From Bacteroidales bacterium (GTDB taxonomy: Bacteria; Bacteroidota; Bacteroidia; Bacteroidales; UBA7960), in the NCBI GenBank assembly GCA_003559855.1, contig PWJZ01000087.1:1-42487 (forward strand): a DNA stretch of 42,487 nucleotides, given 5' to 3'. Below the pieces are notes generated by a model. The model was not told the DNA's origin and searched no databases. It saw only the letters and a list, made by a program, of their open reading frames with translations. Positions 2,507-5,574 of the stretch are shown here, in pieces; position 1 is the stretch's first letter, and every line of letters begins with the position of its first letter. Position numbers and translations under genes: made by a program.

Positions 2507-3699
2507 TTGAGAGAAAATCCTGCTACATGGCAATCGTATGAGGGAGCTCTGCCTCCTGCCGTTTACGACAGAGGCTTTACAGGACATGAGCACCTTTACG
2601 GGTTTAATTTGATCAACATGGGTGGCAGGGTTTATGATCCCATCGTAAGCCGTTTCCTGAGCCCCGACCCGGCACTTGTCCCGCCCTTTGCGGGATTCAG
2701 GCACCCGGCTTCTCGCAGAGCTTTAACCGGTATGCGTACGTATGGAATAATCCGATGAAGTATGTTGATCCGGATGGGGAGTGGGTACACTTGGTTATTG
2801 GTGCAGTTGTAGGAGGTGTTGTTAATTGGATTGCGCATGGGGCAGAATTTACATGGGAAGGTCTTGGATATTTTGGAATTGGTGCTGTAGCTGGCGCAGT
2901 AGGAGGAATTGCAGGTCAAGCTGTTGCTGGAGCGGTCGGAGCTGCTGGCTTTGCTGGAGGGGCTTTAACTGGAGGAGCTGCAGGATTCTCTGGTGGTTTT
3001 GTTACAGGTGCTGGAAATGCTTGGATAGGGGGAGCTAGCTTTGGTGATGGATTAGTCTCTGGGTTGCAAGCAGGTGCGATTGGTGGATTGACTGGTGGAA
3101 TTATTGGTGGTGTAGCAGGAGGGATTAATGCAGTAAAACATGGTGGTGATTTTTGGACTGGAGATGGGGCTACTTTTGATGTATATGATATAGAAAGAAC
3201 TAGCAATAGAATTAAAACAGGTGAAGGTATGGAGTATTCGCAAGAATACGCTGAATATAAATCAGGAAAATGGTTTAAGGAACATGAAAAGCACGTAAAT
3301 AAATTATATTCTGATGGGTCCATTCCTCCAGGTTATACAAAAGATGGAGATATTGTATATAATACTGATATGTTGCCGGTTAGAGGATCAGCTGTATATA
3401 AATCTAGTCAAAGAGCAACAGATGTCTATTTATACAAAGCAGCATTTACTTCAAAAGAACAACTTTATTTTACTATGGGACATGAATATCTCCATGCAGC
3501 TTATTTTGCAACAGGACTACGGTGTACAAAAACTCACCGTGCAAATATTCGTCATTGGGAATATCATCAAGCTCTTGATTGGAATTGGCGAGTAGATTAT
3601 TATGGAGGAAGGTATTTTGATTATGAAAAATTTTATAACCCCAAGTATCATTATAATACTGTAGGATTTTATACTCTTATGTTTAGACCTTGGCTTTAA
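2504..3699 (+). pseudogene. Orphan, frameshifted Rhs C-terminal tip with HExxH metallopeptidase-like toxin domain
   Basis: Rhs/YD-repeat proteins carry a conserved core followed by a variable toxin tip. Here only the end of the core remains: from codon 2507 (TTG, right after a TAG at 2501) comes NPATWQSYEG, DRGFTGHEHLYGFNLINMGG and VSRFLSPDP. At 2711-2714 one base is missing: restoring a T gives SQSFNRYAYVWNNP and joins the frame to PMKYVDPDGEW at 2755. Beyond the core is a glycine-rich hydrophobic pretoxin region (about codons 8-125 of the second frame). It is followed by a ~185-residue tip with MGHEYLHAAYF, an HExxH motif (His243, Glu244, His247 counted from 2755), and a downstream HWEYHQ that could supply a third zinc ligand. 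The N-terminal thousands of residues expected of a full Rhs protein are absent. The tip itself is intact and could serve as donor cassette, or be translated from the ATG at 2755. Confidence 0.8.
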
Positions 3700-5079: not shown

Positions 5080-5113
5080 AGACCCTTAGGATTTTTGGAA
5101 ATCCTAAGGGTCT
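5080..5113. repeat. 15-bp perfect palindrome (REP-like)
   Basis: AGACCCTTAGGATTT at 5080-5094 and AAATCCTAAGGGTCT at 5099-5113 pair perfectly around a four-base loop. No T-run follows on either strand, so it is more likely a dispersed palindromic repeat than a terminator. Confidence 0.65.
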
Positions 5114-5204
5114 CAGAATGGTTTGGGCTTAATTTTTTTATCCCGCATTTGCGGTAGAAAAAGTAAAAATTGAAAATATGAAATAAAATTCTTTAATTAA
5201 ATAT

Positions 5205-5428
5205 CACTACTGTCCGGTTAAAATCTTTTGAAACTCATGAATATCAATATTGATAACAATTTCATTAAAATTGACTATTTAGATGGTAATATTTATATTT
5301 CTTTTATGCCACTAAGACTCGAAGACACTAAGATACACTAAGAACCTGAGAATCAATACTATCAGCTTTGTGTTTCTTAGTGTCTTGGTGCCTTGGTGGC
5401 TATAATTAATTTTAATCGGACAGTATTG
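5205..5428. mobile_element. MITE-like element, 224 bp, with 20-bp terminal inverted repeats and 9-bp target duplication
   Basis: The left end CACTACTGTCCGGTTAAAAT and the reverse complement of the right end, CAATACTGTCCGATTAAAAT, agree at 18 of 20 positions. The element is flanked on both sides by ATTAAATAT (5196-5204 and 5429-5437), a clean 9-bp target-site duplication. There is no transposase; the longest frame inside is 34 codons from an ATG near 5238. The interior contains a further palindrome (5309-5402). It is a non-autonomous element that must be mobilised in trans by an insertion sequence with the same ends; the family is not determined here. Confidence 0.7.
5309..5402. repeat. Imperfect long palindrome of the GCCACCAAGG…CTTGGTGGC type
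   Basis: GCCACTAAGACTCGAAGACA-type left arm and CTTAGTGTCTTGGTGCCTTG-type right arm pair imperfectly and form a long hairpin inside the MITE-like element. Similar palindromes recur in many environmental genomes (recalled, not searched). Confidence 0.5.
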
Positions 5429-5440
5429 ATTAAATATATA

Positions 5441-5494
5441 TAAAAAAACCCTGAAAGATTGAACTTTACAATTTTCGTTTTCAATCTTTCAGGG
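5441..5494 (-). terminator. Rho-independent terminator of tRNA-Phe
   Basis: Read on the minus strand, CCCTGAAAGATTGA (5494-5481) pairs perfectly with TCAATCTTTCAGGG (5462-5449) and is followed by a run of seven T. It lies eight bases behind the tRNA-Phe gene. Confidence 0.85.
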
Positions 5495-5501
5495 CTGGTA
5501 G

Positions 5502-5574
<73 letters not shown>

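Follow-up and report, generated by a model that had tools for sequence, protein, structure and literature searches.

Introduction

Some described systems place a small gene between inverted DNA arms. RAYT genes, in the portion of PMC2817692 that describes their arrangement, are always flanked by two inverted REPs, and further REPs are scattered. The intervening sequences of 23S rRNA, as presented in the relevant section of PMC4990558, consist of a small S23 (four-helix-bundle) ORF between inverted-repeat arms. Among insertion sequences, the IS4Sa row of a table in PMC2266710 gives ends of the form CA------T, a size of 1150-1750 bp and a target duplication of 9 bp (8-10).

Here we describe a MITE located beside tRNA-Phe in a stretch of 42,487 nucleotides from a Bacteroidales bacterium (contig PWJZ01000087.1; hereafter the window), together with the periodic palindrome that it carries. 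The MITE itself is ordinary, being IS4-type and thus a known kind of element. Its hairpin leads to an idea on the nature of the palindromes of 'CACAAAG' type that many environmental bacteria carry, and on the role of the GxxExxY protein; our literature searches found no explanation of these palindromes or of GxxExxY function. In what follows G000 is the own genome, a draft, and G001, G002 and G003 are genomes of the same genus.

Results

Anatomy of the element and of its target site

The features of the locus are collected in Table 1. The initial annotation had described a MITE-like element with an intact 9-bp target duplication, 20-bp ends matching at 18 positions and no transposase. All of this was recovered: the same nonamer stands exactly on both sides, the ends agree as described, and ORFs of at least 80 aa that overlap with it are absent. 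The annotated span, 5196-5437, corresponds to a real feature that includes both duplications, the element proper being the interval between them. Pairs of 9-mers picked at random in the flanks coincided in 8 of 200,000 draws. As single-stranded DNA, the MITE is much more strongly folded than its 200 shuffles (z -9.6), and a periodic palindrome lies inside it at about 5304-5405. The insertion had further been called fairly recent; this recency is relative, since the closest of the copies detected in the assembly has 86% identity.

Table 1. Features of the MITE locus and its surroundings, numbered from the first letter of the window
Feature	Position	Strand	Remarks
ORF	2507-2758		possible RHS-repeat core fragment, judged by motif
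Separate ORF, 314 aa	2755-3699		follows the ORF at 2507-2758
Hairpin AGACCCTTAGGATTTTTGGAAATCCTAAGGGTCT	5080-5113		about 90 bp ahead of the MITE
Left target-site duplication ATTAAATAT	5196-5204		exact match with 5429-5437
MITE, 224 bp	5205-5428		no ORF of at least 80 aa; own genome has related copies
Left terminal inverted repeat CACTACTGTCCGGTTAAAAT	5205-5224	+	18/20 with right end; common to other copies, like IS4-type ends
Palindrome left arm, periodic, three inward CRC[AT]RAG units	5304-5343	+	34/40 with arm at G000:C48
Palindrome right arm, periodic, two inward units	5366-5405	-	
Right terminal inverted repeat CAATACTGTCCGATTAAAAT (reverse complement of 5409-5428)	5409-5428	-	18/20 with left end
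Right target-site duplication ATTAAATAT	5429-5437		exact match with 5196-5204
15-bp perfect inverted repeat	5449-5494	-	between element and tRNA-Phe
tRNA-Phe	5501-5574	-	adjoins 15-bp inverted repeat

The 15-bp inverted repeat is separated from the MITE end by 20 bp. G001 and G002 have a similar repeat, which assigns it to the target site rather than to the MITE. It is probably the terminator of tRNA-Phe; a terminator scan detected none.

Empty site and copy family

The tRNA-Phe region was located in all three congeners. In G001, alignment across the site scored 127 without the element and one duplication, compared to 88 with the element, and required a single one-base gap. G001 thus carries the empty site that the initial annotation had proposed to look for in relatives. 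The element is also absent from G002 and G003, where the neighbouring sequence is too diverged to display the target itself.

The own genome gave 33 match rows to the element, some of which are both strands of one palindrome. The end pattern occurred 61 times when up to two mismatches were allowed, compared to 23 occurrences of the reversed control pattern, and at 23 places with at most one mismatch. Many copies lie at contig ends of this draft, as expected of repeats that break an assembly, so that some of them may be halves of one copy. Mechanical picking of end pairs at 26 loci yielded 18 end-like pairs, two of which are IS4 elements. Among these 18, the 9-bp duplication was exact in 8, matched at 8/9 positions in one and at 7/9 in two, and at 6 or fewer in seven; within the own genome, exact duplications accompanied 6 of 11 pairs. 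All eight exact duplications are of the form A-N7-T, and the elements that they flank range from 214 to 986 bp. The mean duplication identity was 6.47/9, compared to 4.12 with the right flanks shuffled (maximum 5.4 in 2000 shuffles), a test that used 15 of the 18 rows after three weaker-ended ones, two of them with exact duplications, had been dropped. The exact 28-base pattern of the MITE end gave 0 matches in GTDB genome contigs, a collection from which the own genome or very near records may be left out. The element combines the features that place it among MITEs: it is short and multi-copy, has inverted ends that it shares with an IS, and is accompanied by a duplication and an empty site.

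One copy of 205 bp (G000:C94:52332, L097) has MITE-like ends, a duplication matching at 8/9 positions and another palindrome, ACGAGATTCTTCGCTACGCTCAGAATGACA.

An IS4-type element with similar ends

A profile search of the own genome for DDE_Tnp_1 (PF01609), the sole transposase family covered, gave one match, located in an element of 1313 bp with the ends CATTAGTGTCCGATTAAT / CATTAGTGTTCGATAAAT. An IS with the kind of termini whose search the initial annotation had recommended is hence present in the same genome. Its DUF4372 and DDE_Tnp_1 domains sit on two separate ORFs, and it matches the NCBIfam model transpos_IS4_1 with 197.7 bits (cut-off 115). A YREK motif was found as YKYRLKVELFLKWIK in locus L103, and also in L105 and L119. 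With its ends CATTAGTGT and its length, this IS agrees with the CA------T ends and the 1150-1750 bp tabulated for the IS4Sa type. The own-genome copy (contig C85) is broken by an in-frame stop and a frame change, and no intact autonomous IS4 partner was seen in the own-genome draft. The 9-bp flanks around IS copies are identical at 2/9 positions in C85 and at 7/9 in G023; MITE copies duplicate 9 bp. An IS-like end is present at three contig ends, which is consistent with further, collapsed IS copies; an IS-like end on contig C44 had no match when compared with plasmids.

A relative of the transposase is encoded in 13 of the 39 genomes of the family, the own genome included, and several of these relatives have ends of the same type. 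In the sister genome G001, a copy on contig C230 joins the MITE left end to 48 bp that are 83% identical to the IS end, and it is bounded by an exact duplication. As judged from their sequences, the ends of the MITE match those of IS4-family elements (IS4Sa-like). This likeness, together with the chimeric copy of the sister genome, identifies the element as an IS4-type MITE, and the shared termini point to an IS4-type transposase as its probable mobiliser.

The palindrome inside the MITE and arms elsewhere

The own genome contains 21 matches to the palindrome arm with at most one mismatch. A MITE end lies within 350 bp of 18 of them (16/18 distinct places), compared to 9 of 292 control windows from relatives. 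The exceptions are a lone match on contig C27, for which no second arm was found within the 450 bases examined, and two arms on contig C48, which have no MITE end within 350 bp. In G047 (7 loci), G023 and G028, palindromes of this type were accompanied by MITE ends in 0 of 9 cases, those of G047 lying in other surroundings. The left arm of the window is closely similar to one of the C48 arms (Table 1), and the two C48 arms enclose most of an ORF of 150 aa in the own genome. The product of this ORF was recognised as GxxExxY (TIGR04256, 135.5 bits, cut-off 35) with a PDDEXK_3 match.

The suggestion that the palindrome travels with the element thus describes the own genome well, where arm matches cluster near MITE ends, and is not the whole account: the same-type palindromes of three other genomes lack MITE ends, and the C48 palindrome brackets a GxxExxY gene. 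As a full account, an origin of the palindrome as an intrinsic part of the MITE is rejected on the basis of the C48 arms and of these other genomes. The palindrome is best interpreted as a unit that the MITE captured and that stems from another system.

Further variation was seen among the arms. The arms of the first palindrome contain or adjoin a second one, CCCTGTTGGATA...TATCCAACAGGG, whose forms vary, which is partial in C65 and whose position differs by copy; it was found at G000:C71 (L084), C93 (L085), C75 (L083) and C65 (L010) and at G002:C13 (L033). At G000:C114 (L091), C103 (L099), C49 (L144) and C28 (L155), the periodicity of the arms is broken by a short unit, either CACTGAGCTTGTCGAAGTG or a variant.

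GxxExxY genes and their periodic arms

GxxExxY is present in 28 of 59 genomes, the own genome included, with 78 match rows. Among the 30 GxxExxY loci listed from relatives, inverted flanks exceeded the 95% control level in 23 and the 99% level in 18 (402 control windows, maximum score 58); 15 of 20 further stretches, which had no control windows of their own, scored at least 28. A scan of GTDB contigs extended the comparison to the best 80 of at least 570 confirmed relatives, which are not a random sample. In these best 80, inverted flanks lay above the 95% level at 61 loci and above the 99% level at 53, compared to 144 and 25 of 3042 control windows (maximum 64); 19 loci have no inverted flanks above the 95% level. 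When 268 other ORFs of the same loci served as controls, 57 of the 80 GxxExxY genes were above the 95% level and 46 above the 99% level (3/268 controls). Two or more inward CRC[AT]RAG units on both sides were found at 48 of these best 80 loci and were missing at the other 32, compared to 0/268 other ORFs and 0/30 genes of the IVP type described below; outward-facing units on both sides occurred at 5/80.

Contigs with arms above the 99% level are titled as members of the Bacteroidota, Ignavibacteria (L247), Anaerolineales and Anaerolineae (L236, L252), Roseiflexus (L281), Planctomycetota (L240), a cyanobacterium (L279), Alphaproteobacteria (L263) and Rhizobium (L257); those from outside the Bacteroidota are MAG contigs, the titles of which are possibly misassigned. 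In the parts of the literature on GxxExxY, PF13366, PDDEXK_3 and TIGR04256 that our search returned, nothing on hairpins was found, and a literature search with six oligonucleotides of the palindrome returned no paper.

Genes of the IVP type (four-helix bundle, 23S_rRNA_IVP), which are relatives of the ORFs in 23S rRNA intervening sequences (PMC4990558), were also found in relatives (L302-L331). Inverted arms exceeded the 95% level of 398 controls at 28 of these 30 loci, and the arms are inverted arrays of units of about 7 bp with a motif other than CRC[AT]RAG. As IVP genes have inverted periodic arms too, such arms are not unique to GxxExxY, and there may be a wider class of genes with periodic inverted arms. 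GxxExxY and IVP genes share the contigs G014:C71, G008:C47 and G046:C400.

The GxxExxY protein

Residues D62, E72, K74, Q86 and Y90 are invariant in all 28 aligned GxxExxY proteins. We assign D62, E72 and K74 to a putative PD-(D/E)XK active site on the basis of this alignment, and we take the Q-x3-Y spacing to resemble the RecB/Cas4 motif. The structure of the protein was predicted with confidence (pLDDT 94.8). The best structural match of this model was 4ic1 (SSO0001), presumably Cas4-like, with Z 10.4 over 97 residues at 3.1 Å, followed by 3ijm (Z 8.4) and the archaeal Hjc 1gef (Z 7.7), a Z below 8 being a value that may mean merely a common arrangement. The top Foldseek match, again 4ic1, had an E value of 4.5e-3, so that none reached 0.001, and a sequence search of the PDB with GxxExxY gave 0 matches at E up to 1. 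The predicted fold thus fits a PD-(D/E)XK enzyme, the nearest function within that group being not settled by the model.

Gene-less hairpins and a swap site

The hairpin pattern ACCRCARAGNNCRCARAG occurred in 11 of 18 genomes, with up to 33 occurrences per genome, and its reversed control in none. The exact pattern is absent from the other seven, namely the own genome, where the arms start with GCCAC, and G002, G003, G015, G047, G067 and G068. Hairpins of 61-130 nt are formed at 10 of 30 pattern loci listed (9 distinct places), and a search of these 10 loci revealed no GxxExxY gene. The remaining 20, which include one GxxExxY locus, have no hairpin within 300 bp.

The GxxExxY unit of the own genome, at G000:C48:1348-1889, has an ATPase gene on one side and a nuclease gene on the other, which look SbcC- and SbcD-like when their translations are read. 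Both neighbours are also present in G002 (C13) and G003 (C177), at 85-88% DNA identity. The unit found at that site in G002 and G003 is a different one: its protein is 38-40% identical over 113 residues, and its arms are of type ACGCAAAAACCGCAAAA instead of GCCACAAAGACTC. G001 gave a match of only 36 bases at this site. Inspection by eye of the surroundings of the GxxExxY units at the swap site showed no duplication, conserved boundary or movement. Replacement or independent insertion at one site, as these sequences suggest, is the strongest sign that GxxExxY units move.

Discussion

We consider it highly likely that the MITE of the window was mobilised in trans by a transposase of IS4 type, and that it carries as a passenger a hairpin of the class that in other places often brackets GxxExxY genes. 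An IS4-family (IS4Sa-like) DDE transposase would bind the ends CACTACTGTCCGATTAAAAT, excise the MITE and reinsert it by cutting an A-N7-T target with a 9-bp stagger, immediately past the inverted repeat that follows tRNA-Phe; an intact IS4-type partner would carry the ends CATTAGTGTCCGAT. The hairpin with inward CRC[AT]RAG units would have been captured by an ancestor of the MITE and would now be amplified by MITE transposition. For the hairpin class as a whole, the GxxExxY nuclease may be the agent of spread or exchange, a role analogous to the one proposed for RAYTs with REPs. The more general proposal, that GxxExxY, a small and putatively RecB/Cas4-like PD-(D/E)XK nuclease placed between inverted CRC[AT]RAG arrays, is the mobility enzyme of an undescribed, cross-phylum family of hairpins, spreading or swapping by means of them and leaving gene-less ones behind, one of which the MITE holds, is put forward tentatively, as a credible idea that falls a little short of being probable.

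Mobilisation by a non-IS4 transposase, for example of another family that duplicates 9 bp, would agree with an own-genome draft in which an intact IS4 copy was not seen and in which the transposase search covered one family, and is nevertheless very improbable given the similar termini, the chimeric G001:C230 copy with its 48 bp like the IS end, and ends and a duplication length that suit IS4Sa as tabulated in PMC2266710. The origin of the hairpin can also be conceived differently, the palindrome being simply the inner part of the MITE, as in a foldback element, with no link to GxxExxY and with an arm likeness due to chance or composition. The 18 of 21 own-genome arm matches near MITE ends would be explained in this way, as would the closeness of arm and end in several copies, where they are a few tens of bases apart at most. 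We nonetheless judge this improbable, as it must contend with the 34/40 identity to a C48 arm that has no MITE end within 350 bp, with the MITE ends found at 0/9 palindromes of three other genomes, and with the two-sided motif that marks the flanks of GxxExxY (48/80, best 80 of at least 570, vs 0/268); moreover, the G047 palindromes and the gene-less hairpins described above already suggest that the class exists where the MITE was never present.

A more substantial challenge concerns the nuclease. The arms of GxxExxY genes could be immobile regulatory or terminator hairpins whose spread is due to other transposases; the MITE itself shows that an unrelated transposase can spread a hairpin, and neither duplication nor excision of the GxxExxY unit was seen at the swap site. 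Such immobility sits poorly with hairpins that have no GxxExxY gene nearby at 9 distinct places, and with the presence, in sister genomes, of two distinct GxxExxY units at a single site, each having arms of its own, so that we regard it as unlikely, if less so than the two alternatives above. The reading that we prefer is a hairpin captured by an IS4-type MITE from a class that the GxxExxY nuclease may mobilise; hairpins of this kind may be part of an as yet undescribed mobile system.

The comparison with known systems is made with these systems as characterised in the pertinent sections of the sources cited. The window element resembles MITEs in general (PMC10969869) in being shorter than 500 bp and intergenic. 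The IS of the own genome is like IS4Sa (PMC2266710) in size, ends and YREK motif, and the MITE is like it in its 9-bp duplication. The MITE differs from both in carrying a periodic hairpin of a type also found outside MITEs. The BrickBuilt MITE of Porphyromonas gingivalis (PMC4596501) similarly contains an internal repeat array; by contrast, this array is a minisatellite of direct repeats and not an inverted periodic hairpin, and the end listed for it starts with CCGAAAGGTCTC. The 23S rRNA intervening sequences, as outlined in PMC4990558, share with GxxExxY units a small ORF within inverted arms. The GxxExxY unit of C48, however, lies between two protein-coding ORFs and not in 23S rRNA, and the motif class differs, the two-sided CRC[AT]RAG signature being found in none of the 30 IVP genes.

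The REP/RAYT system, to the extent that PMC2817692 sets out its arrangement, is alike in part: some of the GxxExxY genes stand between two inverted palindromic units, and more units are scattered (11/18 genomes). On the other hand, GxxExxY is a putative PD-(D/E)XK nuclease and not a tyrosine transposase of the IS200/IS605 type, its arms consist of periodically repeated CRC[AT]RAG units and lack the GT(A/G)G head, and its flanking is partial (48/80 by motif, among the best 80 of at least 570) whereas that of RAYTs is constant. The different enzyme and the partial flanking rule out that GxxExxY units are members of REP/RAYT. If it is true that the nuclease moves or swaps the hairpins, they would instead represent a system that is REP/RAYT-like in layout and has an enzyme of another fold.
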